Below, one piece after another: positions 14,417-64,000 of a stretch of DNA of 64,000 nt. The notes beneath the pieces were generated by a model. The model had not been told where the DNA came from. It saw only the letters and a program-made list of their open reading frames with translations, and did not search any database. The DNA is taken from contig NZ_BMXU01000001.1 in assembly GCF_014651915.1 (NCBI RefSeq), positions 124,001-188,000 of the forward strand, read 5' to 3'. The first letter of the stretch is position 1; each line of letters begins with the position of its first letter. The position numbers and the translations under genes are program-made. The DNA comes from Parvularcula lutaonensis. Its GTDB lineage: Bacteria > Pseudomonadota > Alphaproteobacteria > Caulobacterales > Parvularculaceae.

Positions 14417-14491
14417 GCGGGCGTAGCTCAGGGGTAGAGCATCACCTTGCCAAGGTGAGGGTCGTGCGTTCGAATCGCATCGCCCGCTCCA
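14417..14491 (+). tRNA. tRNA-Gly (anticodon GCC)
   Basis: A 75-nt cloverleaf with encoded CCA. The acceptor stem gcgggcg (14417-14423) pairs with cgcccgc (14481-14487); the anticodon stem tcacc/ggtga encloses the loop ttgccaa with anticodon gcc at 14449-14451; the T-loop ttcgaat lies at 14469-14475. Its 3' end is the integration target of the ICE, and the 16-bp core leaves the tRNA intact after insertion. Confidence 0.97.
14476..14491 (+). other. attL core (tRNA 3' end)
   Basis: The 16 bases cgcatcgcccgctcca, the last part of the tRNA-Gly gene, are repeated exactly at 63098-63113. The flanks diverge on both sides of each copy. This is the expected product of site-specific integration by a tyrosine recombinase into a tRNA gene. 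Confidence 0.92.
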
Positions 14492-14618: not shown

Positions 14619-16028
14619 ATGGCCCGACCTCTTGATGGTGATCGATACCTCCGCCAGCGGGCGGGATGGTACTACTACTACCGGCACATTCCGCGCCGGG
14701 TTCAACCCTTCTATGAGAGCCAGACGATCCGCCTCGCGCTCAGCACTCAGTCACGCGACATCGCCCGGATGCGCCGGGATGAACTTGTCGAAGCGGATGA
14801 CGCCTATTGGGCCCAACTCAAGCTCTCGCTTGACCTGGAAAAAGCCGGGCAAGCCATGGACACGGCCCACGCGCGCAAACGCTATGACATCGCCAAGGCG
14901 CGCGCGATGGCGGCGGGCTACACCTATCGCCCCGTGGACCAGCTCGCTGATCCGTCCCAGATTGAGGATATCGTCAGGCGGCTACTCACTGTCGAGCAGC
15001 AGACCACATCGGACGGCCGTCTGAACGAAGCTGTGGTCAATGCCGTCCTGGGCGGTGTCAGCGAACCGAAAACGACTGTTTCGGAAGCGATGGATATCTA
15101 CAAGTCGAAGATCGCACTTGGCGAATTGCGCAGCAAGTCACCGGCTCAGAAAAAGCTCTGGCACGCCACAAAGGATAGGTCGCTTCGGTATTTTGTCGAA
15201 GTGATCGGCGACCTGCCTATCGCCGAGATCACACGCGAGCATGCGCAGGCCTATTTCGACTGGTGGAACCAGCAGCTTTCGCCGGATGATCCAGACGAAA
15301 AACCGAAGAAACCGAAAACCGCGGCGCGGCATTTCAGCGACGTTCGCAAGCTCTACGCCGAGTATTTCCGATACATGGGCGAAGAGGATCGCCAGAACCC
15401 GTTCCGCAACATGAACTTCAAGGGCAAGTCGCGGACGGTGATCCCCGCGTTTCCGGATGCCTGGGTGCGCCAGAAGATCCTTGTTCGCGGCGCGCTCGAT
15501 GGCCTGACGGAGGAGCTTCATCTCGTCACCTTCATGCTGATCGAGACCGGCTGCCGCCCAAGCGAGATCATCAATCTGCGGCCGGAAGATATAGTTCTAA
15601 AGGCAAAGGTCCCACACATCGCCATCCGGGCGCGCGAAGACCGCGAAACCAAGACCGAAACCTCGATCCGCGAAATCCCGCTGGTCGGTGTCGCACTTGA
15701 GGCAGCCAAACGCGCGCCGGGCGGTTTTCCGCGTTATGTCGACAAGTCCAATTCCTTCTCTGCAGCGATGAGCGCGGCCTTCAGGCGCCGCGAGCTCTTC
15801 CCGACAGCGGATCACGTCATCTATTCGTTCCGGCATTCCTTCGAGAAGCGGATGCAGGAAGCCAACATCGACTACGCTCTGCGCTGCCTCCTGATGGGGC
15901 ACAAACATGACCGCCCTAAATATGGGGATGGCGGATCGTTGAGCTATCGTCGTGATGAGTTGATGAAGATTGCGCACCCCGTGCCAAACGATTTGTTCGC
16001 AGACTTCGACGCGGCACGCACGGCCTAG
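14619..16028 (+). CDS. Tyrosine integrase of the ICE
   Basis: A 469-residue site-specific recombinase starting at the ATG at 14619, next to attL and reading into the element. The N-terminal part (LRQRAGWYYYYRHIPRRV) resembles the DUF6538 domain of alphaproteobacterial phage-type integrases; a SAM-like core-binding domain follows (about 140-260). In the catalytic domain Arg313 (GCRPSEI), SFRHSF near 404, His428 (LLMGHK) and the probable nucleophile Tyr435 (PKYGDGG) are seen. The HxxR box reads YxxR, a substitution found in some relatives. It should catalyse integration at, and excision from, tRNA-Gly. Confidence 0.93.
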   Translation: MARPLDGDRYLRQRAGWYYYYRHIPRRVQPFYESQTIRLALSTQSRDIARMRRDELVEADDAYWAQLKLSLDLEKAGQAMDTAHARKRYDIAKARAMAAGYTYRPVDQLADPSQIEDIVRRLLTVEQQTTSDGRLNEAVVNAVLGGVSEPKTTVSEAMDIYKSKIALGELRSKSPAQKKLWHATKDRSLRYFVEVIGDLPIAEITREHAQAYFDWWNQQLSPDDPDEKPKKPKTAARHFSDVRKLYAEYFRYMGEEDRQNPFRNMNFKGKSRTVIPAFPDAWVRQKILVRGALDGLTEELHLVTFMLIETGCRPSEIINLRPEDIVLKAKVPHIAIRAREDRETKTETSIREIPLVGVALEAAKRAPGGFPRYVDKSNSFSAAMSAAFRRRELFPTADHVIYSFRHSFEKRMQEANIDYALRCLLMGHKHDRPKYGDGGSLSYRRDELMKIAHPVPNDLFADFDAARTA

Positions 16029-44310: not shown

Positions 44311-45153
44311 ATGAACAAGTCGGAGCTTCGCTGGGGCGTCGAGCGGCGTCTCGAATTCATCGAGTTCCGGCTGTATTGGGAGGGGCACGTGAACCGCGGC
44401 GATCTGATGGAAGTTTTTGGCGTCTCGGTGAACCAGGCCTCCACCGATCTTAACCGCTATCTCGAGCTCGCGCCGGGCAACATGGCCTATGACAAGAGCG
44501 AGCGGACCTATGTCCGTGCCGATGGTTTCGCGCCGAAGTTTTTGGAGCCCGATGCGGGACGATATCTCTCCCAGCTCCGTCTGCTGGATCAGGGGATCGT
44601 GGAGCGGTCCGACGCCTGGCTCGGCAGTCTGCCGGAATTCGAAGCCTCGCCAACCCCTGCGCGCGGTGTCGATGCGCCGATTCTCCGTTCGGTCCTGAAG
44701 GCGATCGAGAACCGGGAGGCGATTGAGGTTCGCTACCAATCCATGTCGCAACCTGAACCGGCCTGGCGTTGGATCGCACCCCACGCGCTCGGATTTGACG
44801 GGTTCCGCTGGCACGCCCGTGCATGGTGTTTCAAGGACGAGGGTTTCAAAGACTTCTTACTTTCGCGCATCCTGAAGGACCGCGCGCGCAAACCGTCAGA
44901 AATTGATCCGCAAACGGATAGCGACTGGCACAAGAAGGTCGATCTGGTTGTCGCGCCACACCCTGACCTGTCGGATGCGCAGCAGGCCGCTGTCGCTCTC
45001 GATTACGGAATGAAAAATGGCCGCACCACCCTCTCGGTCAGGAGTGCGATGCTCTACTACACATTGCGGCGTCTCGGCCTCGACACCGATCCTTCAGCAC
45101 GCGCACCGAAGGACCAGCAGATTGTGCTTGTCCGGCAGGAGATGACAGCATGA
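44311..45153 (+). CDS. BrxR/CapW-like wHTH-WYL transcriptional regulator
   Basis: A 280-residue protein; the ATG at 44311 is preferred because CAGGAGGA ends about 10 bases upstream. The N-terminal winged helix (RRLEFIEFRLYWEGHVNRGD, LMEVFGVSVNQASTDLNRYL) is typical of BrxR/CapW. The WYL domain (about 125-200, ALGFDGFRWHARAWCFKDEG) and a C-terminal WCX-like domain (about 210-280) follow. Members of this family repress BREX, CBASS and other defence operons until a ligand is sensed. Its stop overlaps the helicase start by 4 bases. Confidence 0.85.
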   Translation: MNKSELRWGVERRLEFIEFRLYWEGHVNRGDLMEVFGVSVNQASTDLNRYLELAPGNMAYDKSERTYVRADGFAPKFLEPDAGRYLSQLRLLDQGIVERSDAWLGSLPEFEASPTPARGVDAPILRSVLKAIENREAIEVRYQSMSQPEPAWRWIAPHALGFDGFRWHARAWCFKDEGFKDFLLSRILKDRARKPSEIDPQTDSDWHKKVDLVVAPHPDLSDAQQAAVALDYGMKNGRTTLSVRSAMLYYTLRRLGLDTDPSARAPKDQQIVLVRQEMTA

Positions 45154-51460: not shown

Positions 51461-51473
51461 GGAGTAAACCGAG

Positions 51474-54400
51474 ATGGCGAAGAGTACACGTCAGCATGTC
51501 TTTGAAGGCATGGAGATGCTCCCCGAGGGACTGATCCCGTTCGTGGAAAAGCGGCTGGAAAGCTCGCTGAAAGGCCATTGGCAGGTGGAGCTGATGGAGC
51601 GGGTGCAGGGCCTGCGGGCCACCTCCGATGGCGGTATCAACTGGGACCAGCAGGGCCTCTTGAAGACGATGATGTTTCTCTGGAAGGAGGCGTTTGGCAC
51701 CGTGCTGGGGCATCAGGAACGCTCCTATGTCTCGGAACTCTTGGAGGTGCGCAACAGGCTCTCTCACAACGAGACCTTCACCTATGACGATGCCGAACGC
51801 GCGCTCGACACGATGCGCCGCCTTCTGGAAGCCGTCAGCGCGAAGGAGATCGCCGAGAAGATCGGCCATGCGCGCGACACGGTGCTGCGCGTCAAATATG
51901 CCGAGCTCGCCCGCAATGAGGAACGCCGCAAAACGCAGCGCACGGATATTTCCGTTGAAACGGTGGCCGGCCTTCTGCCCTGGCGCGATGTGGTCGAGCC
52001 GCATCAGGATGTCGCCACGGGCGAATTCCAGCAGGCCGAATTCGCGGCTGACCTCGCCAAGGTGCACAATGGTAGCGCGCCGTCAGAGTACAAGAACCCG
52101 ACCGAGTTCTTCGCACGCACCTATCTGACCGAGGGGCTGAGCAATCTCCTGGTCGGCGCAGCGAAGCGCCTGAACGGCAGTGGCGGCGACCCGGTGGTTG
52201 AGTTGCAGACCAATTTCGGCGGCGGCAAGACCCACTCCATGCTCGCGCTCTATCACATGGCGAGCGGTACCGTAGTGCAGGATCTTCCGGGGCTTGATCA
52301 GCTTCTCTCCCGCCATGACCTCAGCGTGCCGAAGACAATCAACCGCGCTGTGCTGGTGGGCACATCACGGGGCCCGCAGGATGTGATCAAACTCGAAGAT
52401 GGCAAGACCATCCGCACAACTTGGGGCGAGCTTGCCTGGCAGCTTGGCGGCGTGGCCGGTTTTGAAATGCTCGCCGAGAATGACGCCAATGGCATCGCGC
52501 CCGGATCGAACCTGCTCGAAGCCTTGTTCAAGGCGTTTTCGCCGGCGCTGATCCTGATCGACGAATGGGTCGCGTATCTGCGCCAAATCTACAAGGTCGA
52601 AGGACTGCCATCAGGCTCATTCGATGCGAACCTCTCCTTCGTTCAGGCCCTCACAGAAGCGGTGAAAGCCAGCCCCGGCACCTTGCTGGTCGCGTCGCTG
52701 CCCGCCTCACAGATCGAGGTGGGCGGTGAAGGGGGACAGGAAGCGCTCGCCCGCCTGAAGCAGACCTTCAGCCGGGTGGAATCCTCCTGGCGCCCGGCCA
52801 GTCAGGAGGAGAGCTATGAAATCGTTCGGCGACGTCTCTTCAAGGAGATACCTGGCGACAAGTATATGCACCGGGACAATACGCTGAAGCAGTTCGTCAA
52901 ACTCTACCGAGAAAACGCGAACGACTTCCCGCAGGGCTGTTCTGACGAGGATTACCGGCGCAAGCTCGAAAAGGCCTACCCGATCCACCCGGAACTGTTC
53001 GATCAGCTTTATACGAGCTGGGGCTCGCTCGAAAAATTCCAGCGCACGCGCGGCGTCCTCCGCCTGATGGCGCAGGTCATCCATGAACTCTGGATGGGCG
53101 GCGATCCATCAGTGATGATCATGCCGGGCAGCGTCGCGATCAGCTCCGCGCGGGTTGAGCCTGAATTGCTGCACTATCTCGACGCCAGCTGGCAGTCGAT
53201 CATTGCTGGCGACGTGGATGGCGTAACCTCGACACCCTACAAGGTTGACCAGTCCGCCCCCGGACTGAACCGCTATTCGGCGACGCGACGCGTCGCCCGA
53301 GCCGTGTTCATGGCCACTGCGCCAACGCACGGGCAGGAAAACCGCGGTCTGGATGACAAGCAGATCAATCTCGGCGTCGTTCAACCCGGCGAACGCCCGG
53401 CCATCTTTGGGGATGCGCTCCGCCGTCTGACCAATCAGGCCAAGTTCATGCACAGCGATCTTGGTCGCTACTGGTACTCTATGTCCGCCAGCCTCAACCG
53501 GATTGCTGCCGATCGCGCCGGTCAGTTTGAGGAAGCGCTGGTTCTGATGGAGATCGACAAGGCACTTTCGACCTATATCAACGGCCTCGCTGACCGGGGA
53601 CATTTCGATGCCGTACAGGTCGCGCCGGGCAGTTCATCGGACGTGCCAGATGAACCGGGCGGTGTGCGCGCCGTTATCCTTGGCGTCGCCCATCCCCATA
53701 GCGGGCGCGAGGGCTCGCCCGCCCTGACAGAGGCGAAAGACATTCTGATGCAGCGCGGCTCGACGCCGCGTGTCTACCGCAACATGCTGGTGTTTCTCGC
53801 CGCAGAACAAAGGCAGCTGGATAATCTGAAAGCGGCGCAACGCTCGGCACTGGCCTGGGGTGAGATTGTCGGACAGACGGATCGCCTTGACCTGAAGCAG
53901 AGCGATGTTGCGCTGGCCAAGGCGAAGCTCTCCGAAGCCACAGAAACCCTGAAGACGCGCCTGAAGGAAGCGTGGTGTTACTTAGTCTATCCCGTTCAGG
54001 AATCCGCGCAGTCGGATGTGGAATGGACATCCTCGAAGGTCCCCGCCCAGGACGGACTTCTTTCACGCGCCAGCAAGAAGCTCGTGAGCGATGAAGGATT
54101 GTTGCCAGAACTGGGACCGGCACGACTCGACCGCGAACTCCAGAAGTACATCTGGAACGGCAAGCCGCACCTCCACCTGAAAGACCTTTGGGAGTATCTC
54201 AATCGATACACCTATCTTCCTCGCGTGAAGAACCGATCGGTCCTGATCAATACGGTGCGGTCAGCGGTTGGCGGGATGTTGCCGGGTCCATTTGCCTACG
54301 CAGATCGTTGGGATGAGACCAAGCAGACCTATCTGGGGCTGGCGATATCGGGCGCCGCCAGCACGCAGGTCGTGATCGACAGTGACGCTGTCATCATTAA

Positions 54401-54767
54401 ACCTGAAATCGCAGAGGCCCAAAGACCGCCGGAGCAAGAGCCAAAAAGCACGCAACCTGAAGCCACCGGAACTGGAGGCGCGACAACAAGCTCCGGCGGT
54501 GCATCCGGCTCAGGCGGTGTTGTTGACGAAGAACGGATGCCCACCCGCTTTCAGGGGACGGTCATGATTTCCGCTGACAGACCGGCGAAAGAGATTCACC
54601 AGATCGTCGAAGCGATCGTTGAGCAACTCACCACGCTTCCCGGTGCAGAGGTCAGCCTGAAACTGGAGATCGATGCGGAAGCGCCAAGCGGTCTTGATCG
54701 CGCCAAGGTCCGAACACTTCTGGAGAACGCGGCAACGCTCGGCTTCATAGACAAGAAAGTCGAATAA
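51474..54767 (+). CDS. Hma ATPase: HEPN domain plus DUF499 ATPase
   Basis: A 1097-residue protein. Residues ~1-130 form a Swt1-type HEPN domain with RNRLSH (R93-x4-H98), matching the HEPN ribonuclease pattern. The DUF499 ATPase follows with Walker A FGGGKTHS (248-255) and Walker B ALILIDEW near 360. A low-complexity Gly/Ser/Thr/Pro linker (about 985-1020) leads to a C-terminal alpha-beta domain. It is 14 bp downstream of the methylase and ends the defence operon. Known DUF499-DUF1156-helicase operons protect against phage. Confidence 0.86.
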   Translation: MAKSTRQHVFEGMEMLPEGLIPFVEKRLESSLKGHWQVELMERVQGLRATSDGGINWDQQGLLKTMMFLWKEAFGTVLGHQERSYVSELLEVRNRLSHNETFTYDDAERALDTMRRLLEAVSAKEIAEKIGHARDTVLRVKYAELARNEERRKTQRTDISVETVAGLLPWRDVVEPHQDVATGEFQQAEFAADLAKVHNGSAPSEYKNPTEFFARTYLTEGLSNLLVGAAKRLNGSGGDPVVELQTNFGGGKTHSMLALYHMASGTVVQDLPGLDQLLSRHDLSVPKTINRAVLVGTSRGPQDVIKLEDGKTIRTTWGELAWQLGGVAGFEMLAENDANGIAPGSNLLEALFKAFSPALILIDEWVAYLRQIYKVEGLPSGSFDANLSFVQALTEAVKASPGTLLVASLPASQIEVGGEGGQEALARLKQTFSRVESSWRPASQEESYEIVRRRLFKEIPGDKYMHRDNTLKQFVKLYRENANDFPQGCSDEDYRRKLEKAYPIHPELFDQLYTSWGSLEKFQRTRGVLRLMAQVIHELWMGGDPSVMIMPGSVAISSARVEPELLHYLDASWQSIIAGDVDGVTSTPYKVDQSAPGLNRYSATRRVARAVFMATAPTHGQENRGLDDKQINLGVVQPGERPAIFGDALRRLTNQAKFMHSDLGRYWYSMSASLNRIAADRAGQFEEALVLMEIDKALSTYINGLADRGHFDAVQVAPGSSSDVPDEPGGVRAVILGVAHPHSGREGSPALTEAKDILMQRGSTPRVYRNMLVFLAAEQRQLDNLKAAQRSALAWGEIVGQTDRLDLKQSDVALAKAKLSEATETLKTRLKEAWCYLVYPVQESAQSDVEWTSSKVPAQDGLLSRASKKLVSDEGLLPELGPARLDRELQKYIWNGKPHLHLKDLWEYLNRYTYLPRVKNRSVLINTVRSAVGGMLPGPFAYADRWDETKQTYLGLAISGAASTQVVIDSDAVIIKPEIAEAQRPPEQEPKSTQPEATGTGGATTSSGGASGSGGVVDEERMPTRFQGTVMISADRPAKEIHQIVEAIVEQLTTLPGAEVSLKLEIDAEAPSGLDRAKVRTLLENAATLGFIDKKVE

Positions 54768-54828
54768 GCCGTTTGTTAGGGAACGGCTCCGCATAGTCAT
54801 CTGACGGTGTCCTCACACCAAGCCCGAG

Positions 54829-56760
54829 TCACCGCCCAATCCCTTTGCTTCTTCCCACGCTCCAGTCGATGCCGCCCGTGCGAGCTTTCACGCTAATCTC
54901 CGCGCCGCGATAGCGTTCCAATTCCGGCCGCCAGGGGACGAGCGTAAACTCCTTTGATCGTGTCACGAGTGCGAACCGGCCCTGGGCTAGGTCCACCGGG
55001 CGCTCATAGACCCCGCTGATTGACATGCCGTCTTCCAGTTTCAGGAACGCGCCTTTGCCTTGAATTCTATCGGCGGCAGATTTTAGTTCCTCGGCGGCGA
55101 GTTGGTCCCTCATGCCGGGCTTCAATTGGCCGTCCTCCCCAAGCCAGCCTTCACGCTCCAGAAAGGCGCGCCTTGCGCTCAGCGCTGAGGCGGTTTGCTG
55201 ACCAAATCCTTTGCCCGTCAAACTCTCGCGTTCAGCGCCGTCCAACCAGACAGGTGCCCGCCGCGTGATCTGCGCCTCGACAGAGAGCCAGGATTTCACC
55301 TCAACCCGCACACCACCTGTGCGGGCCGTTTCGAACCGTGCCGCCTTGGCCAGATAGTCCGTACCGACGGCAAAGCGCCCGTCGCTGTCACGGGTGACAA
55401 AACCTGCCCGCCGCAGGGCTTCGAGACGGCGAATATGGGCCAGGCGATAGTCGGCCCGTGAAGCGGGGTCGAAGGCCTCGTGCAAGCTGTCTGAGTAAAG
55501 GCCACCATTCAAAGCGGCGATACGGGCAATGGTTTTATCTGACGCACGCGGGCTTCTGGCTGCAGGCGAAATTTTCACCACCGCATCTATCGGCGGCACC
55601 GCGCCCGGCAGGGTTTCACCAAGGCCGACATGCCAGCGCTCCCCATCGAGGGCTTCGACGATGAGATAGCGGCGATTGCGCAGCTCATCTTCCGGGCCGT
55701 CGGTCACGACACGACAGATGATCGCGGGCGCATTCTCATGGGTCGGATCATAGACCCTGCCGGAAAGGCCATCGCCTGTCTTGCAGGCGGCGGCGATTTC
55801 ACGGATGCGGTCGCCTTCGCGGCCAATGGTTTGCAGTCGCTCCTTCCAACCGTCTTCAAGCGCCCACGTTTTATCGCTACGGGCGGATGCAAGTCCCATC
55901 CCTCGCAAGTGTTCCAGCCGCCTCTGGATCAGTGTACGGTCAAACCGGCTCAGCTTCGACATCCCCTCCGGGCGCGTCAGGTCACCGCCCCGCGCCAGCT
56001 GTTCGATTTTCGCATCGAGCTGCGTCATCCTGCCCGCTGTCACATCGCGTTCCTGGGCCCTGGCAATCTCAAGCTCGCGTCGGGGCCCCAGTTCATCCGT
56101 CACAATCGCGCTGGCGCGCTCTCGCAGGCCTCCGGTCAGATAGTCCCGGGCGATGATGAGATCGCGTCCCAGCTGATCCTTGCCGCGCAGGACGATATGG
56201 GTGTGGGGGTGGCCAGTATTGTGGTGATCGACGGCGACCCAGTCGAGCCTTGTGCCGAGATCCTTTTCAGCCTGGGCCATAAGGGCACGCACCGTCTCTC
56301 TCTGATCGCTGAGGTCTGAGGCGTCCTCGGGCGAGACGATGAAGCGAAACTGATGGCGGTCACCGGCGCTGCGCTCCTCGAACGGGGACCCGTCCATTCT
56401 GTCTGCGTCTCTGCCATAGAGTTCACCGCCTTCACCGTCTCGGTCCACACCGTCCCGCTGGATGTATCGAAGATGCGCCCGGAACGCGGCGGGGCCAAGG
56501 CCTCGGGCGGCGCGCGCGATTTGCACCTTCACCACGACGCGTCGCATGCGGAATGTCGGGTACGGCGACTGACGAAACTGACTCGCCCGTCCCGCACCGC
56601 TGCCACGGGCGATCTGCGCCCCGCTGAATGCTGTCTTGCCGGTGCTGGAAGAGAGGCGTTTTGCGGCGCGGGTGACCTGCGATTTGAATCGCCTGCCGCC
56701 CGCAGCGCCGACATCGCGAGGCCTGCCAAGTCGCGGGGTGAACTTATCCTCCCCGCTCAT
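54829..56760 (-). CDS. Relaxase, VirD2-like with DUF3363
   Basis: A 643-residue relaxase from the ATG at 56760. After a basic N-terminus comes the VirD2/RlxS-type core with VKVQIARAARGLGPAAFRAH, then the metal-binding VDHHNTGHPHTHIVLRG (three-His motif), and a long DUF3363 region (about 260-640). It should nick at oriT and pilot the strand through TraG and the Trb channel. The catalytic Tyr cannot be assigned with confidence; candidates are near YPTF or YGRD. It converges on the Hma operon. Confidence 0.9.
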   Translation of the reverse strand: MSGEDKFTPRLGRPRDVGAAGGRRFKSQVTRAAKRLSSSTGKTAFSGAQIARGSGAGRASQFRQSPYPTFRMRRVVVKVQIARAARGLGPAAFRAHLRYIQRDGVDRDGEGGELYGRDADRMDGSPFEERSAGDRHQFRFIVSPEDASDLSDQRETVRALMAQAEKDLGTRLDWVAVDHHNTGHPHTHIVLRGKDQLGRDLIIARDYLTGGLRERASAIVTDELGPRRELEIARAQERDVTAGRMTQLDAKIEQLARGGDLTRPEGMSKLSRFDRTLIQRRLEHLRGMGLASARSDKTWALEDGWKERLQTIGREGDRIREIAAACKTGDGLSGRVYDPTHENAPAIICRVVTDGPEDELRNRRYLIVEALDGERWHVGLGETLPGAVPPIDAVVKISPAARSPRASDKTIARIAALNGGLYSDSLHEAFDPASRADYRLAHIRRLEALRRAGFVTRDSDGRFAVGTDYLAKAARFETARTGGVRVEVKSWLSVEAQITRRAPVWLDGAERESLTGKGFGQQTASALSARRAFLEREGWLGEDGQLKPGMRDQLAAEELKSAADRIQGKGAFLKLEDGMSISGVYERPVDLAQGRFALVTRSKEFTLVPWRPELERYRGAEISVKARTGGIDWSVGRSKGIGR

Positions 56761-56968
56761 AAGGTAGCCGCCGCTGGCGCCCTCATAAGCACCTGTTTCC
56801 AAGGCGAATTCTCACAAAGAGGGCGCCACAAGGTCTTGCAAGAGACGCCAAAAAAGTGATGTGCAGACAAGGGGTTCAGGGGCCGAGGGCGCCAACCCTT
56901 TAATCTTGCCCTCCGGGTCCGCTTTCCAAATCCTTGCCAGCACTTGCAAGCGCTTGCGAGATCGCCGG
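56761..56968. other. Gap between relaxase and traF, candidate oriT
   Basis: This 208-bp gene-free stretch holds the palindrome tcttgcaaga (56834-56843) and a second cttgcaag (56943-56950) followed at once by cttgcgag (56953-56960). Repeats beside the relaxase gene are the usual setting of oriT, but no nick-site consensus is clear. Confidence 0.4.
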
Positions 56969-57469
56969 TCATCGCAACCTCCACAAGAGGATCGCCACGC
57001 CATCAAGATCACTTTCCTTCATGACCCCGAAATACCGCCCATCGAGGGATTGCGGATGTTCATTCAGGAGGAAAACCTCGCCTTCCTGAAGTACGTAGCA
57101 ACCTTGCCAGCGGGGAAGATCAAGGCCGCTGGAGGCCTGTATGAGCGCCTCGGCGACGAGGTTTTGATTGATCGATACCGCCTCATTTTCGCGGCAAATT
57201 TCATCGCCGGGAAGCCCTCTGATCAATTTGATCAGGGGCCAGTCAGCCCCTGTAAATCCGTGCGCTGAAGCCCACTTCGCAGCCTCTGATCTGGCAGAGA
57301 CGACGGCCCACCCGTTCAGGGTGAGAGGGCCGTCGCTCCGCCAGTAGAGGCCGACAGGCGCGCTCTCCGTGCGGTTCCAGATCAGTCGGTTCTGATCGGA
57401 AATCACGCTCGCTGAGCCCATCAGGACTATGGCAATACCTGATAGAATGAGAGCTATTCTGCGCTTCAC
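56969..57469 (-). CDS. traF: TraF-type S26 signal peptidase
   Basis: A 166-residue membrane peptidase; the GTG at 57469 overlaps the stop of the AlpA-like gene and is preferred. One membrane segment (about 5-22), then RTESAPVGLYWR with the catalytic Ser and LIKLIRGLPGDEIC with the catalytic Lys, as in TraF of RP4, which matures and cyclises the TrbC pilin. Its presence with TrbC fits a P-type pilus. Confidence 0.9.
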   Translation of the reverse strand: MKRRIALILSGIAIVLMGSASVISDQNRLIWNRTESAPVGLYWRSDGPLTLNGWAVVSARSEAAKWASAHGFTGADWPLIKLIRGLPGDEICRENEAVSINQNLVAEALIQASSGLDLPRWQGCYVLQEGEVFLLNEHPQSLDGRYFGVMKESDLDGVAILLWRLR

Positions 57470-57693
57470 GGACGCACCCGTGTCGCGCTGTCCTTGAACT
57501 TTCTGCGTTCGGACCATTCGATGAGATCATCGATGTGATAGAAGACGAGACCGCCATGTTTGCGGTAGCTGGGGCCGCCCCCGATCCAGCGATAATGTTC
57601 AAGGGTGGATCGGGTCAGCCCGAGATAGTCGGCGGCTTCCTGCGCTCTCAGAAACGGGCTCTTGCGTCCGCCATTTTCATGGGTGTTTGTCAT
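57466..57693 (-). CDS. AlpA/MerR-like helix-turn-helix protein
   Basis: A 75-residue protein from the ATG at 57693: FLRAQEAADYLGLTRSTLEH then GGLVFYHIDDLIEWSERRKF, the classic excisionase/AlpA wHTH. It overlaps traF. Proteins of this kind in ICEs act as activators or as recombination directionality factors, so it is the best candidate for an excisionase here. Confidence 0.82.
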   Translation of the reverse strand: MTNTHENGGRKSPFLRAQEAADYLGLTRSTLEHYRWIGGGPSYRKHGGLVFYHIDDLIEWSERRKFKDSATRVRP

Positions 57694-57767
57694 TGTGCTC
57701 TGTCCTTTCCGGTCCTTTCGTGACCGGGGCAAGGTCAGCACAAATCGCAAGAATTCAGGGGGATCGT

Positions 57768-58688
57768 TTAGCCTGCAGGGATCAGCGATCCCCCTCCGGA
57801 TCGCGCCGGATTCATCAGATCAAGATAGCCGCCTTGCATCAGGGCGAGGCCTTTCTTGCGCAGTCTGCGCATACGGTTTCTCACGCTCTCGTCCGGCGAT
57901 TTGTAACGCTCAATCCCGTCTGTTTCGCCATAGATGACGATCGCCGCATCGCGGTGTGAGCCGCCTTCAAGGTGGACATCGAGGGCGATCAGCGCGTCGC
58001 GCAAGCCAAGCGCAGTGCTGGTCCATTGCGGGCCTGCGGGCTGCTCGGGAAGGAAGCCGTCATAGACCATTTTCAGTCTGCGTAGTGTCTCGATCTTTGC
58101 ATCAACCGGCCCGAAAAACCGCAGCATGAAGCGTAGATCGACATCGCCCAGAAGCAGGCTGTCGCCCTCGCAGCGCAGCTGGATCGAGCGTTTGCAATAG
58201 ACGATCCGAAGGTGCTGCGCACCATCATGATCGATGAACAGGGACCTGCGACAGGTCAGTCGCGAGAGGTTGAACAAGCCTTCGAGACATCGGTCCGTAA
58301 GGCTTCGCTCAACCGCTCGAACATCCACCGTGGTGACGCGGTGATTGGCCTCTTCCGTCCAGAAAATCGGCGCATCAAGACAGGTGCGACGCGGGCTGAC
58401 GAAGAAGGAGAGCCCGAATCGCGCCGCATCAGGCTCCGGCCTCGACAGTTCCAGGATTTCCATGCCGCAGGACTGTTTGGTCCGCGTCAGGGCGCCGTCG
58501 CGATGGTCGGCATGCGCGTCTTCATATTGGGGCCAGCGGCGGGCGAATTCCCAGGCCCAGCTGCCCAGCGTTACGTTCTTGAGATAGGCGTATTCGTCTG
58601 CATTCAAACGCTGAAAATCCCCAACCTTTTCAATCCATAAGAGCAAAATTCGTGCCAACACGCGTCGCGCGAGCGACGCGAATGGCAT
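57768..58688 (-). CDS. DUF6499/DUF2285 replication or regulatory protein
   Basis: A 306-residue frame. LNADEYAYLKNVTLGSWAWE, FARRWPQYEDAH is a DUF6499 start, and the C-terminus (LRDALIALDVHLEGGSHRDA... VRNRMRRLRKKGLALMQGGY) is DUF2285. Such proteins recur in alphaproteobacterial conjugative elements beside traF and are annotated as regulators or replication initiators. The ATG at 58688 gives an odd N-terminus that contains a palindrome (58661-58680), so the true start may be further in, for example a TTG near residue 15. Confidence 0.78.
   Translation of the reverse strand: MPFASLARRVLARILLLWIEKVGDFQRLNADEYAYLKNVTLGSWAWEFARRWPQYEDAHADHRDGALTRTKQSCGMEILELSRPEPDAARFGLSFFVSPRRTCLDAPIFWTEEANHRVTTVDVRAVERSLTDRCLEGLFNLSRLTCRRSLFIDHDGAQHLRIVYCKRSIQLRCEGDSLLLGDVDLRFMLRFFGPVDAKIETLRRLKMVYDGFLPEQPAGPQWTSTALGLRDALIALDVHLEGGSHRDAAIVIYGETDGIERYKSPDESVRNRMRRLRKKGLALMQGGYLDLMNPARSGGGSLIPAG
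58661..58680. promoter_or_regulatory. Palindrome at the 5' end of the DUF2285 gene
   Basis: cgcgtcgc (58661-58668) and its exact complement gcgacgcg (58673-58680) flank four bases. Position suggests an operator or an RNA hairpin near the translation start, and argues for a start downstream of 58688. Confidence 0.5.
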
Positions 58689-58755
58689 GAAGGCGAACGC
58701 AAGAACCGCCCCGGAGATGATCTCCAGAGCGGCTCGATTGCGATGGATGCCCCCC

Positions 58756-59079
58756 CTAATCTCGAGGGTTCCAGAGGATCACATGGCGGCCTTTCTTGCC
58801 TTTCACGGGGGCGAGGTTTGCGTAGATCTTGCGCGGGCCGATCTGGGGGTCTGCGAGCGTGATGGAGACATATTCGCGACCCGAGGCTTTGGCTTTGCGA
58901 AGCCAGCCACCGCCGATTTCTGTCGAGGTTTCTCCGGCGAAGATGCGGTAATCGGGCTGTCCGTCGGCTGACTTCTCCGCGTTCTTCTCGATGCGGATTG
59001 CAGCGGCGAGGTTCATCATTGCAAGAGCGCCTTCGAAGCCGGTCTTGGTTTCGCTGACATATCCGAGTGCGTTGGCCAT
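58756..59079 (-). CDS. DUF736 family protein
   Basis: A 107-residue protein: ANALGYVSETKTGFEGALAM, DYRIFAGETSTEIGGGW and a final KKGRHVILWNPRD. It is a paralogue of the copy at 25274 but clearly distinct in sequence. It heads the leftward DUF736-DUF2285-AlpA-traF block; the reason why such elements keep two copies is unknown. Confidence 0.87.
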   Translation of the reverse strand: MANALGYVSETKTGFEGALAMMNLAAAIRIEKNAEKSADGQPDYRIFAGETSTEIGGGWLRKAKASGREYVSITLADPQIGPRKIYANLAPVKGKKGRHVILWNPRD

Positions 59080-59206
59080 GGTGTGGTTCCTTTCGTTTCC
59101 ATGTTGTCTTCGGAGACCCCTTGTCCCCGTCGACGCCGGACCGCTCGGACGGCGCGGGGCGGGCCTGAACCGCTTGCGGGCGAAACGAAGTGGAGCACCG
59201 GACAGG

Positions 59207-59257
59207 CAAGAAAACTTGATCCGCGAGGAGCCGCAAAGTGGCGGGGAAGTTTTCTTG
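59207..59257. repeat. Large inverted repeat in the DUF736-parB gap
   Basis: caagaaaactt (59207-59217) and its exact complement aagttttcttg (59247-59257) enclose 29 bases that contain a further small stem (ccgc/gcgg). The gap 59080-59533 has no convincing gene. The element may be the 5' leader of DUF736, a protein-binding site, or part of an origin. Confidence 0.55.
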
Positions 59258-59533
59258 AATAGCCGGTTTCAAGGCCCGACAGGCGTCGTCCAGGTCACAC
59301 GGCAAGAGACGGGAACAAGGGGATCTGAGCGCATCATTCGGAAACGGATGGACCAACGCTGGCCTACCTTTCGGAAGGCCCAGCGATACCCAAAGACGGG
59401 CGATTTTTTTCCGGCGCGGTTCAATCAATGAACCCCTTGCCTGCGCCCAGACTGCATCCATCAGTGCGCGGAAAACCGCCCGGCGACTGTCACCGGGCGG
59501 CTCCGTCATCCGCCTGACAAGGAGACTGATAGG

Positions 59534-61306
59534 TCAGGCGGCGTGTGGCTGATCGAAGGTTTCGGCGTCGGCTGACTCAATGTCTTTGTGCCCCTTGAAC
59601 AGGCCCGTAATCCGCGCCCATGCGTCTGCAGGCGGTGAGCCTGCACCCTCGAGAAGGCGGGTTGGCGGCACATGCATCCATGCGGGCCGCCAGTCGAGAT
59701 TTGGTTCACATCCATGACCCATGATCCGGTTGCCGATGATCTGTTTCTGGATTTTGGCGGTGTCGCTCGCGCAGCTTTCCGCAAGCGATTTCGATCCAAT
59801 ATCAGCGACCATGGCATTGATGGCCCGCTTGTCGCGGAGCAGGTCGAAAAAGGCCGGTTCCGGCTTCCAACAGGCTGACAAATTCGTCTCGCAGACATGC
59901 AGAACGGCTTCGACAACCGGCCCACCTGCCTCCAGCGTCTGCGCCATGGTGAAAGCCAGAACCTCCATGACTTCCTCGTCCGACATGGCAAGAAGCGCGG
60001 CGAAGACTTCGCAAAGCCGGTAAGCGTCACCGTTGCGCCGCGCCTCGCCGTTCACGCCCAGCGCCTTGAACAGGGAGGCAATGCGGGTGCCTTCTTCTTC
60101 CATTTGTGCGGCGGCTTTCGATGTCTCAAGGCTGGCGCATGTGTCCTCCTTGCGGGAACGGCATTCATGGGCGCGGACTTGCCAAAGGGCGCTGCCGGTC
60201 ATCGCGTGGGCGACCATCAGGCGAAGGGCAATGGCGGGCTGCGCGACAAGGCTCGCCTGCGCCGCGCCATGGCGATGCAGAAGAATGTATTCCGCGAGTG
60301 GGCCGGACATCTCCGGTTTCACGGGAGCGGCGGGGCCGTCGCCATCACCGGTCTTTGCCTTCTCCTGCCGCCGCGCCTCGGCCTGTGAGATATAGCCCTC
60401 ATGGAAGGTCACAGTGCCGTCATGGCGAAGCTCGACATAGACCTTGCCGCCTTGTTTCTTCGTGCGGGTCTGATGGTCCCAGCGATGGAAGAACGCCCCG
60501 CGTTCAAGGCAGACAACGTCCTTCCAACCGTCTGCAATGTAAGCCTCAATGCGCTGCGCCACGGCGGCGGACTGCGCCTTCCAGAAGGCGTCGGGATCGG
60601 CGAACACGCCATGTTGTCCGAACAGGTCTGCAGTGATCTGGCCGTCATAGTCTGCAATGTCGAACAGCGCCTTGTCGGTGGTGATAATCGCCCCGCCGGT
60701 GATCCATGCCTTGCAGTTCCGGCCACGCGGGGCGCGATCGTCTTCGCTTTCGTAGAGCCGCAGCCACTCGCCTTGCCGGTCCTCTGTGGCGAGCGTCAGG
60801 GCGCGGATCGTCTCGCGGTCGATCTCGTCCTCGGCGTAGAGCTTGCGGATAGGTTCGGACAAAGAGGCGAGCGCCAGAACACGGCGCACCAGAAGCTCCG
60901 TGACGCCAAAGAAGGCGGCGATCTCGTCCACGCTGCGGCCTTCATCGTGCAGGCGTTTGAAGGCGGTGTACTGCTCCATTTCCGACGCTGGCAGGCGTCC
61001 GACATTCTCGATGACCGACGCAGCAATGGCGCTGGCGGCGTCTTCCTCGGTCATGATCGCGCATGGGACATGCGGGGTCTCGCCGGTCTCCTTCTCGATC
61101 TCTTTCAAGGCAAAGAAGCGCCGCCGTCCGGCGACGACGCCATAATGATCGCCCTCTTTACGAACGAGCAAAGTCTGGCGAATGCCGCTCTCGCGGATCG
61201 ATGGCAGGATGTCGGACACATCCGGCTTCTTGCGGCTGTGGCGCATGTTGAGTTTAGAGATTTTCAGCTGGTCGAGCGGGATGGTTTTAAGAATGGGCTG
61301 GGCCAT
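59534..61306 (-). CDS. ParB/RepB-like nuclease-domain protein
   Basis: A 590-residue protein from the ATG at 61306. The N-terminal ParB/Srx domain (IPLDQLKISKLNMRHSRKKP, LVRKEGDHYGVVAGRRRFFA with GRRR) and a ParB HTH (ERSVDEIAAFFGVTELLVRR-like, about 130-200) are followed by ~380 residues of specific extension. Long ParB-like proteins of this type are typical of rhizobial plasmids and ICEs and are thought to help maintenance or gene control. No ParA gene is seen beside it. Confidence 0.86.
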   Translation of the reverse strand: MAQPILKTIPLDQLKISKLNMRHSRKKPDVSDILPSIRESGIRQTLLVRKEGDHYGVVAGRRRFFALKEIEKETGETPHVPCAIMTEEDAASAIAASVIENVGRLPASEMEQYTAFKRLHDEGRSVDEIAAFFGVTELLVRRVLALASLSEPIRKLYAEDEIDRETIRALTLATEDRQGEWLRLYESEDDRAPRGRNCKAWITGGAIITTDKALFDIADYDGQITADLFGQHGVFADPDAFWKAQSAAVAQRIEAYIADGWKDVVCLERGAFFHRWDHQTRTKKQGGKVYVELRHDGTVTFHEGYISQAEARRQEKAKTGDGDGPAAPVKPEMSGPLAEYILLHRHGAAQASLVAQPAIALRLMVAHAMTGSALWQVRAHECRSRKEDTCASLETSKAAAQMEEEGTRIASLFKALGVNGEARRNGDAYRLCEVFAALLAMSDEEVMEVLAFTMAQTLEAGGPVVEAVLHVCETNLSACWKPEPAFFDLLRDKRAINAMVADIGSKSLAESCASDTAKIQKQIIGNRIMGHGCEPNLDWRPAWMHVPPTRLLEGAGSPPADAWARITGLFKGHKDIESADAETFDQPHAA

Positions 61307-61350
61307 GATCTGGCTCCTTCTTGATTGGCTTTGAGATTGGGGGCGCGCCG

Positions 61351-61827
61351 TCAGGCGCGCGCCCCGCTGGTATCCAGCGCCGCACAAAGGCGGCGGGCGG
61401 CGGCGAACCCTGCGTCCAAGGCTTCGGGCAGAAGTTCCTTCGCGACATCGGTCAGATAAGCGTTGTCGCTGCCCGGATAGTTCGCCTCGATGCCCCAAAG
61501 GCTGGCGGCATGGGTGTCCAGCGTGACGCCCTCCAGCGCGACCGACAGAACAATCCCGCAATAGAACCATTCGTCCTTGCGCCATGCGGCCATGACGGCT
61601 TCGGCCTTGGCCTGCGCCTCGGCGAAGCGCTGGCGATGGTTTGGGCCGGGACCAATGAACCCCGGCGCGTCCTTGTAGAGCGAAGGCCAGAATCCGTCCT
61701 GACGCTCATCCGGTGCATCGGGGCAATCATCGCGCACAATCCGCGCGGTGATCTCGAAGCCTGCAACCCCGCAGGTGATGCTGTCGCCCTCGCAAACGAA
61801 GGTCTGGAAGCGCTGCGTGAACGTCAT
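61351..61827 (-). CDS. Hypothetical protein
   Basis: A 158-residue soluble protein from the ATG at 61827. It begins with beta strands (FVCEGDSITCGVAGFEITAR) and has central Trp/Asp-rich segments (AWRKDEWFYCGIVLSVALEG). The same small protein is found beside parB and ardA in related elements, but I know no function. Its start overlaps the stop of the Cys-rich gene upstream, so it belongs to the ardA-led operon. Confidence 0.7.
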   Translation of the reverse strand: MTFTQRFQTFVCEGDSITCGVAGFEITARIVRDDCPDAPDERQDGFWPSLYKDAPGFIGPGPNHRQRFAEAQAKAEAVMAAWRKDEWFYCGIVLSVALEGVTLDTHAASLWGIEANYPGSDNAYLTDVAKELLPEALDAGFAAARRLCAALDTSGARA

Positions 61828-62036
61828 GCCGCGCCCTCCTTGAAGAGTCCGGCAATCGCGATCCAGTGCGGGCCGTAGACGGCATGTTCGCCGCATTCGT
61901 CGCAACGGTAGGCGCTCGCATCGGGTTCGCAGCATCCGCGCGGGGCGCGGCAGGCCAAGCAGAAGCCTTCCGACCAGTCGTCAGCCTGCTGCAGTTCTTC
62001 CAAAGTGAAGCGATAGCGGGTGGTTTCGGGAGTCAT
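61824..62036 (-). CDS. Small zinc-ribbon-like protein
   Basis: A 70-residue protein; ATG at 62036 with GGAGGG upstream. Cysteines in CLACRAPRGC and YRCDECGEHAVYGPHW could bind one or two zinc ions. It is the second gene of the ardA operon. Function unknown; small zinc proteins are common in the leading regions of conjugative elements. Confidence 0.7.
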   Translation of the reverse strand: MTPETTRYRFTLEELQQADDWSEGFCLACRAPRGCCEPDASAYRCDECGEHAVYGPHWIAIAGLFKEGAA

Positions 62037-62050
62037 GTCCAAGCCCTCCG

Positions 62051-62614
62051 CTATCGTGACCAGAAAATGTGGACTTCATCGAAGCCCGTCTGGAAGACCA
62101 TGATCTCGCCATTAAGCGCCATGTCGCGGGCGAGGGCCTGCCAGTCGATGTAGTAGCGAAGCGAGTCCGGAATCTCGGTGCCGGTGTCCTCGTGCAGCTG
62201 CTCGGCAAAGTCTGCGGCGCTGCGATATTCGCCTGCGTATTCGTCGAAGGCGGCGCGCGCTTCGGCGAGGTCGTCGCCGAAATGGCTCAAGACCTTGCCG
62301 CCAAGCTCGCCATGTTCCTCGATGAAATCCGCAAGCTCGCACACCGTCTCGAATGAGGCGTATTCGGACAGGTTCGCCCCCTCGAAGCCCTCATAATCGT
62401 GGATCGCCCATTCTTCCGCGTCCGGCTCCGGCGATGCCGCCAGCATGGCGCGCACCTGTTCCCCAATCTCGTTAGGGGTGGTGGCATCAATCCATCGCCC
62501 ATGCAGGCAACCCGAATTGTAGGCCGCAAGGCAGGCCACATAGATGCGCGGTCTCTCTGCTGGCGCGGGTGCGGGCGTTGCCGCATGCGCGTGGGTTGCG
62601 AGTTGGTCAGTCAT
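62051..62614 (-). CDS. ardA: Antirestriction protein ArdA
   Basis: A 187-residue acidic protein with the ArdA signature RIYVACLAAYNSGCLHGRWI and the C-terminal YYIDWQALARDMALNGEIM; roughly 20 residues longer at the N-terminus than the classical protein. ArdA mimics bent B-form DNA and blocks type I restriction enzymes, protecting DNA just transferred. A GGAAGGAGA site precedes the ATG and lies at the end of a very large palindrome. It is the first gene of the leftward ardA-parB block. Confidence 0.92.
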   Translation of the reverse strand: MTDQLATHAHAATPAPAPAERPRIYVACLAAYNSGCLHGRWIDATTPNEIGEQVRAMLAASPEPDAEEWAIHDYEGFEGANLSEYASFETVCELADFIEEHGELGGKVLSHFGDDLAEARAAFDEYAGEYRSAADFAEQLHEDTGTEIPDSLRYYIDWQALARDMALNGEIMVFQTGFDEVHIFWSR

Positions 62615-62617
62615 GTC

Positions 62618-62842
62618 AGTCTCCTTCCCCGCCCGCGTTCTTTTCCCGACAGTCGGGTGGGCGGCGAGGAGGTGCTCAGCCAGAGCGTGATAGGGCGGCG
62701 CGCAAGGGGAAGCTGTAGGTATGACGCCTAAAGACGATCAGAGATGACGAAGTCCCGCCCCCTTGCGCGGCGACCGCGCTCTGGCAGACGCACCGTCCGC
62801 CCACCTGACTGATGGGAAGAGATATTGAGGCGGAGGGAGACT
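62618..62842. promoter_or_regulatory. ~225-bp imperfect palindrome, candidate single-strand promoter
   Basis: Matching arms, left/right: agtctccttccccgcc (62618-62633) with ggcggagggagact (62829-62842); agtcgggtgggcgg (62651-62664) with ccgcccacctgact (62797-62810, one mismatch); ccagagcg (62680-62687) with cgctctgg (62777-62784); cgcgcaagggg (62699-62709) with ccccttgcgcg (62759-62769). The centre is near 62730. Such a long hairpin just ahead of ardA resembles the Frpo-type promoters that are active on single-stranded transferred DNA. Confidence 0.75.
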
Positions 62843-63001
62843 CAGGTGGCGTTGATCGTGAGGGGAAGGAGCTAAGCGTTAAGACGCCTAACGTGCGAAG
62901 CGTTGCAAAATGATCGTCATTGAGGCAGCCGACTGCCTTGCGTTTCGTTTTCCGGGCAGGCATTCGAATCACAACGCCGCTTCGAACGATTTTGCGATCG
63001 T

Positions 63002-63038
63002 GATTTGGGCCATAATTTTATCAGATTTTGGGCCATAA
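63002..63038 (+). repeat. Right arm-type repeat pair
   Basis: gatttgggccataa (63002-63015) and agattttgggccataa (63023-63038) repeat the left-end motif in the same direction, again 23 bp apart, 60-83 bp inside attR. These are likely integrase arm sites. Confidence 0.72.
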
Positions 63039-63097
63039 TTTGGAAGAGCAGAATTTATAACATATTGATATTATTGGATTATTTTTCTCATTTGGCG

Positions 63098-63113
63098 CGC
63101 ATCGCCCGCTCCA
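63098..63113 (+). other. attR core
   Basis: cgcatcgcccgctcca, identical to the last 16 bases of the tRNA-Gly gene at 14476-14491. It marks the right end of the ICE. Confidence 0.92.
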
Positions 63114-63145
63114 TTTTCCTCCCCCACCCCAGGGAGAACGACGAG

Positions 63146-63168
63146 GCGGCCCGAGGGCCGCTTTTTTT
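63146..63168 (+). terminator. Rho-independent terminator, formerly of tRNA-Gly
   Basis: gcggccc (63146-63152) pairs with gggccgc (63155-63161), followed by seven T (63162-63168). It lies 33 bp beyond attR, so before integration it would have ended tRNA-Gly transcription; the ICE has separated gene and terminator. Confidence 0.82.
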
Positions 63169-63180
63169 GTTGCCTGCGAT

Positions 63181-63474
63181 CTAGCGGCCCCGGTCGCGGG
63201 GAATTTTCAGGGCAACCTCATCTTCGAAGCAGTAGGACCAGATTTCCTTCGGCTCCATGGAGCAGATGACCGGGTGGCTGTGGGCAGCGGCGTGCTTGCG
63301 CGCGTGCCGGTTGGGGGAGCTGTCGCAACAGCCGACCTGTCCGCAGTGGAGGCACTTCCTCAGGTGCACCCATTGCCCGCCCATCGCGATGCAATCGGCG
63401 CAGACCGCGCCTTCTTTCTCCTCCTCGCGAGGCACGAGATATGTGACGGATGCTGCATGCTCGCAATTGGCCAT
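63181..63474 (-). CDS. UBP-type zinc-finger protein
   Basis: A 97-residue protein from the ATG at 63474 with the Cys/His pattern of the UBP zinc finger: CADCIAMGGQWVHLRKCLHC, GQVGCCDSSPNRHARKHAAA, HSHPVI. In eukaryotes the domain binds ubiquitin C-termini; bacterial stand-alone copies are common but uncharacterised. It belongs to the chromosome and lies beside amn. Confidence 0.87.
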   Translation of the reverse strand: MANCEHAASVTYLVPREEEKEGAVCADCIAMGGQWVHLRKCLHCGQVGCCDSSPNRHARKHAAAHSHPVICSMEPKEIWSYCFEDEVALKIPRDRGR

Positions 63475-63537
63475 GGGCACTCCTCCCCAGACAGAGAACA
63501 TAGCCGGGAAGAGCGCGGGTGTGCGGATTTTCCGCAG

Positions 63538-64000
63538 TTAGCGGAAAAGAGGCTCGTCGAAGCTCCTGAGCTTGCGCGAATGGAGCGAGCCTGCATCCGC
63601 CTCGGAGCGGAGGAGCTCCAACGTCCGTAGACCGATCTTGAGGTGCTGGCCGACGCGCTCCTGGTAGAAGGCGTTGGCCATGCCGGGGAGCTTGATCTCC
63701 CCGTGAAGCGGCCTGTCCGAAACGCAGAGTAGCGTGCCGTAGGGGACGCGGTAGCGGTAGCCCGCTGCGGCGACGGTGGCGCTCTCCATGTCGATAGCGA
63801 TGGCACGGGACTGGTTGAGGGTCACCGCGAGGTCCTCGAAGCGGAGCTCCCAGTTCCTGTCGTCAGTGGTCACGACCGTCCCTGTACGGAGGTGCCGCTT
63901 GAGCTCCCGCCCCGAGAAACCGGTCTCTTGCTCGACAGCGGCGGTGAGGGCGAGCTGCACCTCGGCGATCGTTGGCAGTGGGACGGCCGGGGGCAGGGCG
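63538..64000 (-). CDS. amn: AMP nucleosidase, C-terminal part
   Basis: The frame is open to the window edge, so the N-terminal part lies beyond it. IAIDMESATVAAAGYRYRVP, YGTLLCVSDRPLHGEIKLPG and NAFYQERVGQHLKIGLRTLE are typical of AMP nucleosidase, which cleaves AMP to adenine and ribose 5-phosphate. The DMES acid is the catalytic region of the nucleoside phosphorylase fold. It is a core gene and marks the right chromosomal flank. Confidence 0.92.
   Translation of the reverse strand, partial: ALPPAVPLPTIAEVQLALTAAVEQETGFSGRELKRHLRTGTVVTTDDRNWELRFEDLAVTLNQSRAIAIDMESATVAAAGYRYRVPYGTLLCVSDRPLHGEIKLPGMANAFYQERVGQHLKIGLRTLELLRSEADAGSLHSRKLRSFDEPLFR

Follow-up and report, generated by a model that had tools for sequence, protein, structure and literature searches.

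Promoters that act on single-stranded DNA were demonstrated in vivo for plasmid F, and have been discussed for ColIb-P9 and for further plasmids found by similarity (available sections of PMC9849209, PMC11541004 and PMC12826799). Plasmid F is of the IncF type. The two elements of F, Frpo1 and Frpo2, are 92% alike and, according to the accessible text of PMC9849209, rebuild canonical -10 and -35 boxes. For ColIb-P9, the same source describes rapid expression of ardA after entry and Frpo-homologous sequences in the leading region (PMC9849209); our comparison of the ColIb-P9 sequences with the hairpin reported here follows that description. Candidates for additional Frpo elements were collected by Samuel et al. 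2024 through BLAST to five known sequences, or through a -35/-10 plus UP consensus (PMC11541004), whereas a 2026 study identified Frpo solely through BLAST queries, 18 sequences either known or putative (PMC12826799), as far as the accessible parts of both papers tell. Alphaproteobacteria are not named in the text of Samuel et al. 2024 (PMC11541004). The search approach described there would probably miss the hairpins presented below.

Here we describe two long hairpins in a Trb-type element of an alphaproteobacterium, Parvularcula lutaonensis. Unlike Frpo1 and Frpo2, they are unrelated to each other in sequence, and no -10/-35 boxes were recognised in them. No report of such hairpins in Trb-type elements was found among titles and abstract openings, most subscription journals and preprints lying outside this coverage. 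All positions refer to the window, i.e. the whole analysed stretch of 64,000 nucleotides.

The element and its putative origin of transfer

Judged by its sequence, the element is an ICE of the ICEMlSymR7A/Tn4371 type. It spans about 48.6 kb, from tRNA-Gly (14.48 kb) to 63.11 kb; the 3' end of tRNA-Gly contains the attL core (14478..14491, + strand), which is repeated as the attR core at the right end (63100..63113, + strand), these being two matches in the window against 0.01 expected. A tyrosine integrase gene lies at the left end (14619..16028, + strand; Pfam PF00589, E 2.2e-6), and genes with TrbI, CagX, VirB8 and TrbL domains are present. Integration into a tRNA gene and trb-type genes are common to this element and the ICEMlSymR7A/Tn4371 type, as is the order of rdfS- and traF-like genes, oriT region and relaxase. 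Close to both ends (63004-63041 and about 14600) TTTTGGGCCATAA-type repeats occur, which might be integrase arm sites.

Domain searches identified an rlxS-like relaxase with DUF3363 (54829..56802, - strand) and, as the first gene of the leading side, a traF-like S26 peptidase (56969..57517, - strand). Two further domain-bearing proteins were named by position through synteny with ICEMlSymR7A: an rdfS-like HTH_17 protein (57466..57750, - strand) and an fseA-like protein with a RovC/Trans_reg domain (57768..58688, - strand). They are followed by a DUF736 gene (58756..59079, - strand; Pfam PF05284, E 7.3e-24), by an open reading frame with a ParB_N domain (59534..61585, - strand, the extent of the frame, its start being putative), and by the anti-restriction gene ardA (62051..62614, - strand, ATG at 62614; Pfam PF07275, E 1.8e-47). 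Thus, all recognised genes from traF to ardA (56969-62614) are on the minus strand and have the + strand as their template. A large ParB-type gene is also present in the leading region of plasmid F (59538-61496 there).

A nic-like sequence, AATCTTG^CCC (AATCTTGCCC, 56902-56911, + strand), was found between traF and the relaxase gene, with an inferred cut at 56908/56909; we take it to resemble the MOBP nic consensus. Together with an imperfect inverted repeat, which was read by eye and was not listed by the automated repeat search of the window, it forms a putative oriT core (56874..56911, + strand). In relatives an inverted repeat, again recognised by eye, directly precedes the nic-like site. 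The motif ATCYTGY was present on the strand opposite the genes in 32 of the 41 loci with a readable relaxase start, and on the gene strand in 1 of 41. Inspection of 22 of these loci revealed, among those devoid of the motif, six with AATCTCG and one with TATCTCG at the same place; two (L037 and L038) had no clear nic site. The location agrees with published accounts, of which parts were available: oriT of ICEMlSymR7A lies upstream of rlxS (PMC11963761), and in a Tn4371-family ICE the traF-traI intergenic region was shown to be oriT, with a core composed of an inverted repeat plus a conserved block of 20 bp, the probable location of nic (PMC11448139). The relaxase gene is usually within the part that enters last (PMC11541004, in part). 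Because of the nic-like site, and because the relaxase gene lies on its other side, the + strand is likely to be the transferred (T) strand, with traF to ardA as the leading side. Both hairpins are on the side away from the relaxase; the distance from the nic-like site to the start of the hairpin is 2.2 kb for one and 5.7 kb for the other.

A long hairpin upstream of ardA

When the + strand of the 64-kb window was scanned in 240-nt windows with a step of 60, and the folding energy was corrected for G+C content, two overlapping windows covering the region upstream of ardA ranked second and third. The first rank fell within the traF coding region (57121-57420), where a strong hairpin is about equally stable on both strands. 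As had been proposed, each strand of 62600-62860 was folded as single-stranded DNA: the + strand reached -75.8 kcal/mol (z -7.6; none of 200 dinucleotide shuffles folded as well), and the - strand -66.1 kcal/mol (z -5.9). The fold and an independent search for arms both confirmed the imperfect hairpin of about 225 nt, with arms centred on 62730, that the original prediction had placed here (62618..62842, + strand, likely the transferred one). The longest arm pair, 62639-62664/62797-62822, extends over 26 nt at 85%, and further pairs are 62693-62709/62759-62775 and 62676-62687/62777-62788. The predicted end of the hairpin at the ribosome-binding site of ardA was also borne out, the outermost pair starting at 62618, within the Shine-Dalgarno region. 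On the other side, 258 bp separate the hairpin end from the right att core.

Around the apical loop the inner stem GCGCAAGGGG/CCCCTTGCGC (62700..62768, + strand) is supported by the arms, the alignment and covariation. The apical motif GTAGGTATGACGCC (62715..62728, + strand) is largely unpaired and corresponds to the GTAGGTAGGA type of relatives; in an alignment of 36 of them (A1) the G and T of GGTAGG are invariant and the flanking bases almost so. The 5' arm of the T-strand stem carries a conserved bulge, CGAGGAGG (62665..62672, + strand).

No consensus sigma70 promoter was found over 61800-63520. A linear scan for -35/-10 boxes gave nothing above shuffles in either ICE hairpin; for the ardA hairpin, 192 of 200 shuffles equalled the best score in one orientation and 178 in the other. 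The same scan likewise misses Frpo1 and Frpo2 of F, which scored no better than shuffles, so that it is uninformative about such promoters.

Conservation of the ardA hairpin

From 112 loci, 104 with a usable ardA start and upstream DNA were retained, of which 85 are distinct; since these are relatives, counts across them are not counts of independent cases. The nearest are mostly Hyphomonas, Henriciella and other Hyphomonadaceae. In 68 of the 85, the predicted fold of the 240 nt preceding ardA contains 60 coaxial pairs or more, mostly centred near -120. A covariance model (R1; 35 pairs), built from 36 relatives with the window sequence among them, matched 76 of 86 sources, the training 36 included, in the T-strand orientation and always at the ardA start, with 72 weaker matches on the opposite strand of the same places. 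In the window it covered 62628-62842 with 204 bits, a score to be read with the window's membership of the 36 in mind. The ten sources without a match were L080, L096-L101, L107, L112 and the F region (L113). Nine of them belong to the 85 ardA sources, and in eight of these the ArdA identity is 63% or less, the ninth (L080) being a partial ardA; among the matched loci ArdA identity is as low as about 57%.

In the alignment of 36 sequences 95.7% of the cells were paired, compared with 38-46% when the partner was slid by 1-3 columns, and compensatory double changes occurred in 25 of the 35 modelled pairs against 7-10 in the slid controls. The pairing is therefore kept in related elements with compensatory changes, the point on which the original prediction had staked itself. 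Aligned globally, 83 upstream regions stretched over 557 columns, owing to loci that have no hairpin there. Later alignments were restricted to loci whose T-strand fold has 60 coaxial pairs or more; a strand bias arising from this selection was checked for with the unselected 85 relatives and with alifold in the sense orientation.

The hairpin was absent from two of five ArdA loci of other families (L123 and L124) and from the ardA locus of a Haematobacter plasmid (L177). Across 385 genomes of the class, R1 matched five, i.e. the genome itself, one at 202 bits (G372), one at 47 bits (G199) and two weakly (26 and 24 bits); these matches say little about the frequency of the hairpin at ardA, because just 11 of these genomes yielded ArdA.

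Strand preference of the ardA hairpin

The T strand folded better than the sense strand in 81 of the 85 unselected relatives, on average by 8.1 kcal/mol with DNA parameters. Composition-matched shuffles accounted for 1.8 kcal/mol of this advantage and left an excess of 6.2 kcal/mol, positive in 78 of 85. In background windows the strands differed by 0.1 across the window's gene region, by -1.8 across the entire window, by -0.3 in 19 relatives and by 0.9 in plasmids, with standard deviations of 4-5 in each case.

Mismatches within the stems are biased in the same direction. With arms aligned by Watson-Crick pairs only, the 68 selected loci contained 224 sense A.C mismatches, which are G.T on the T strand, versus 95 sense G.T; the share of sense A.C was 0.70, compared with 0.48 expected from composition. 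By locus, 49 leaned to sense A.C and 10 to sense G.T, with 9 ties. When 15 sequences thinned below 80% identity were considered on a structure derived on the T strand, G.T occupied 19 T-strand cells and A.C three; on a structure derived from the sense strand, A.C still exceeded G.T (74 vs 62). These observations point to a molecule under selection that carries the T-strand letters, and they fit single-stranded DNA or an RNA of the same letters alike. Such strand-specific tolerance of G.T would provide a simple sequence test for T-strand-acting structures in any conjugative element.

One could suppose that the hairpin is an ardA mRNA leader, an attenuator or riboswitch working on the sense strand, as it sits in the 5' untranslated region and its outermost pairs in the window include the Shine-Dalgarno sequence. 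However, as DNA the sense strand gives the poorer fold in 81 of 85 relatives, and with RNA parameters it still does so in 74 of 85; it also bears the wrong mismatches. Because both the fold and the mismatch bias favour the T strand, the selected molecule should have T-strand letters and not be an mRNA leader, which we regard as very improbable. Sequestration of the Shine-Dalgarno sequence by the full leader, with release in transcripts starting within the hairpin, was likewise considered and rejected: in 59 of the 68 loci, those where the site could be recognised, its predicted exposure was 0.36 in the full leader and 0.27 in a transcript from -70, i.e. higher and not lower in the former.

A second hairpin upstream of DUF736

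The same scan of the window led to 59101-59340, where a hairpin of about 250 nt (59095..59345, + strand; z -4.8) ends just before the DUF736 gene. The ardA hairpin thus has company in the same leading region, and, as relatives and plasmids demonstrate, this second conserved T-strand hairpin has counterparts far beyond the family. The T strand folded better in all 50 distinct DUF736 regions, the window included. At least 60 coaxial pairs were found in 29 of them, 40-59 in nine and fewer in 12. About two thirds of the mean T advantage (4.95 of 7.71 kcal/mol) reflects base composition; the remaining 2.8 kcal/mol was positive in 40 of 50.

Alignments of 44 regions, which excluded two loci and any region at or below 70% identity, contained 184 A.C versus 123 G.T mismatches (22 loci leaning to A.C, 10 to G.T, 12 ties). 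Paired cells amounted to 89.8%, against 39-51% in slid controls, and double changes to 41 of 88 pairs, against 19-30. Across families, double changes occurred in 20 of 23 pairs in an alignment (A4) of 29 hairpins, picked among the DUF736 regions for having one. The apex of these 29 carries an invariant TTG...GCG..G...GGAA block, which in the window is the near-invariant TTG-n-CGCGAGGA...GGGGAA (59216..59248, + strand); the invariant positions, numbered along the first row from 59094, are T123, T124, G125, G130, C131, G132, G135, G152, G153, A154 and A155.

DUF736 was found in 19 of 190 class genomes drawn, and 31 upstream regions were folded, or 28 once the window's own region and two repeat entries of a single locus had been removed. 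Among the 28, 16 regions representing 12 families had at least 49 coaxial pairs with centres between -108 and -152; the T strand folded better in 27 of the 28. Seven genomes (the present one, G065, G112, G158, G199, G201 and G236) possess one DUF736 copy with the hairpin and another without it; in G209 both folded copies have it, and in G176 neither. In the window, where the location was examined, the copy with the hairpin is that of the leading region; a second paralogue of the ICE (25283-25576, - strand), near the trb genes, has no upstream hairpin.

According to the available part of PMC8627217, DUF736 is encoded on all Mesorhizobium elements of this type examined. The protein is predicted to be a beta barrel (mean pLDDT 85.7), for which Foldseek returned no match at E <= 0.001; its best VIA Z was 5.9, to a lipocalin, followed by avidins. 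We considered it as a possible SSB-like OB-fold protein, by analogy with the Frpo2-ssb arrangement. If the hairpins work as promoters, their presence there would provide a first functional clue to DUF736.

Plasmid F as a control

Applied to F, the scan found hairpins centred at 58444, before ssb, and at 63834, which we assigned to Frpo2 and Frpo1 by their position relative to ssb (as given in the accessible text of PMC9849209) and by their mutual likeness. A third hairpin, at 56604, precedes an anti-restriction gene. The T advantage of the three was 2-10, against a mean of -1.6, and they make up three of the four F-region clusters with a clear T advantage; the fourth, in the sop region (about 52.2 kb, T advantage 5), is no known promoter. 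It is one of five more F clusters with at least 50 pairs, the other four having little or no T advantage. The scan thus picks out the known F promoters, yet is not exclusive to them.

Frpo1 and Frpo2 share their anatomy with the ICE hairpins, being long and imperfect, on the T strand, in the leading region and before genes templated by it. This likeness does not extend to sequence: R1 had no match in the F region, where blastn with both ICE hairpins gave merely matches of 10-24 nt (E 0.17 or worse). The short sequence CGCAAGGG in the 5' arm of the ardA hairpin on the T strand (62700-62709) is also present in the three F hairpins.

The T-strand letters could alternatively belong to a structured non-coding RNA, for example an antisense regulator of ardA and DUF736, in which + strand G.U tolerance and conserved unpaired purine-rich motifs would look alike. 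But the element abuts the ribosome-binding site, so that such an RNA would need its own promoter inside ardA; a search of 54000-64000 against Rfam gave nothing at E <= 1, and the single-strand promoters of F have the same strand preference. We give this explanation a low probability.

Hairpins on other plasmids and elements

In nine of ten DUF736 regions of named plasmids at least 59 pairs were found, centred 87-146 nt before the gene. They come from Chelativorans, Agrobacterium tumefaciens pAt, Sinorhizobium meliloti pSymA, Rhizobium leguminosarum, Bradyrhizobium, Mesorhizobium mediterraneum, Methylorubrum pCMU01, Hydrogenophaga and Pseudomonas aeruginosa pPUV-8; the tenth, from Roseibium, had 38 pairs. 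The T strand folded better in all ten, by a margin below 2.5 in Chelativorans, Roseibium and P. aeruginosa, and only one of 30 control windows taken 100-300 nt further upstream reached 59 pairs. Moreover, 31-40% of the DUF736 hairpin of the window matched ten plasmids at 76-80% in DNA without a listed gene, the gene table being incomplete for these plasmids, nine of which are from named Beta- and Gammaproteobacteria.

Of 1983 windows at eight plasmid loci, 42 reached 58 pairs, and these form 37 clusters. Eleven clusters lay no more than 220 nt from a co-oriented gene start, five before DUF736 and the rest before DUF932, DUF2493, ArdC-type and unknown genes. The mean T advantage was 8.6 for these eleven and 2.1 for the remaining 26 (p 0.0015); among the latter, too, some reach 9-12. 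T-favoured hairpins before DUF932, ArdC-type and unknown genes were seen in L170 (centre 4459), L176 (1228), L173 (3214), L174 (1196) and L175 (4434). Among 1871 windows from 19 relatives (every second of those eligible), 18 reached 65 coaxial pairs, 11 of them before ardA and four before DUF736; of the remaining three, one is the L074 ardA hairpin, whose distance was taken from a later start, and two lie elsewhere.

These results also bear on whether the hairpin is a site used in duplex form, such as a cruciform, a partition or regulator binding site or an integrase accessory site, or else a mobile palindrome. It is palindromic, close to the ICE end, and has a ParB-like gene nearby; still, strand-specific mismatches would not arise from a duplex site, and hairpins precede DUF736 on plasmids too. 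A search at E <= 0.001 found no second copy of the ardA hairpin in the genome, and the mobile palindrome was rejected on this ground. To this group of explanations as a whole we assign only a very slight probability.

A possible role in gene expression upon entry

Where the hairpins lie, how they are oriented, their tuning to one strand and the F control are all consistent with single-strand promoters, and for this reason we favour, with moderate confidence, the interpretation that 62618-62842 is a promoter activated in the single-stranded state, acting like Frpo/ssi of F and ColIb-P9, and that the DUF736 hairpin is another. The two hairpins are most likely Frpo-like in action and unrelated to Frpo by sequence. 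The original prediction of an Frpo-like promoter for ardA is thus supported in part, with respect to the likely T strand, the leading region, the anti-restriction gene, the conserved pairing and the F-like anatomy; a sequence relationship to Frpo was not found.

According to the proposed mechanism, a cut at about 56908/56909, deduced from the nic-like site, would allow the + strand to enter the recipient with its 5' end first, so that traF, DUF736, the ParB-like gene and ardA would arrive within about 6 kb. The unpartnered strand would form the hairpin, and its stem may offer RNA polymerase double-stranded DNA to bind. With the transferred strand as template, transcription, from a start site presumably set by the hairpin, would proceed leftwards into ardA and the genes that follow. 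After synthesis of the second strand, the hairpin would become part of ordinary duplex and fall silent, which would confine expression to the time of entry. The second hairpin may act likewise for DUF736.

RNA polymerase recognises folded single-stranded DNA at ssoA and at the M13 complementary-strand origin, which differ from the present hairpins in that they prime replication and drive no gene. The hairpin itself might serve to prime synthesis of the complementary strand, with either RNA polymerase or a primase as the enzyme, and ardA expression would then be a secondary effect. Such a single-strand initiation site would explain strand tuning and the leading-region position equally well, and Frpo itself was reportedly described, in the title of a 1997 paper by Masai and Arai, as serving both transcription and primer synthesis. 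It leaves unexplained why two unrelated hairpins, and those of plasmids, end at co-oriented gene starts, and why, within a genome, one DUF736 copy can have a hairpin and another not; we therefore consider it unlikely, if less so than the other alternatives.

Should the hairpins work as single-strand promoters, immediate expression on entry would extend to Trb- and Ti-type elements, with examples on plasmids of rhizobia, Agrobacterium, Methylorubrum, Hydrogenophaga and Pseudomonas, and searches relying on Frpo similarity or on a -35/-10 consensus would have missed them. We can tentatively imagine, as a possibility below even chances, a widespread and unrecognised class of entry promoters in Trb/Ti-type elements of Alpha-, Beta- and Gammaproteobacteria, in which the strand would be recognised by conserved apex motifs (TTG-n-CGCGAGGAA...GGGGAA at DUF736, GTAGGTAGGA at ardA) instead of a rebuilt consensus promoter, the reader being either the host RNA polymerase or a protein of the element that accompanies the DNA.

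A separate observation concerns the cargo of the ICE. The region 45150-54767 (+ strand) corresponds to an Hma defence system, composed of the HmaA helicase (1614 bits), the HmaB methylase and the HmaC ATPase, and the same element therefore holds both a defence system and the anti-restriction gene ardA.
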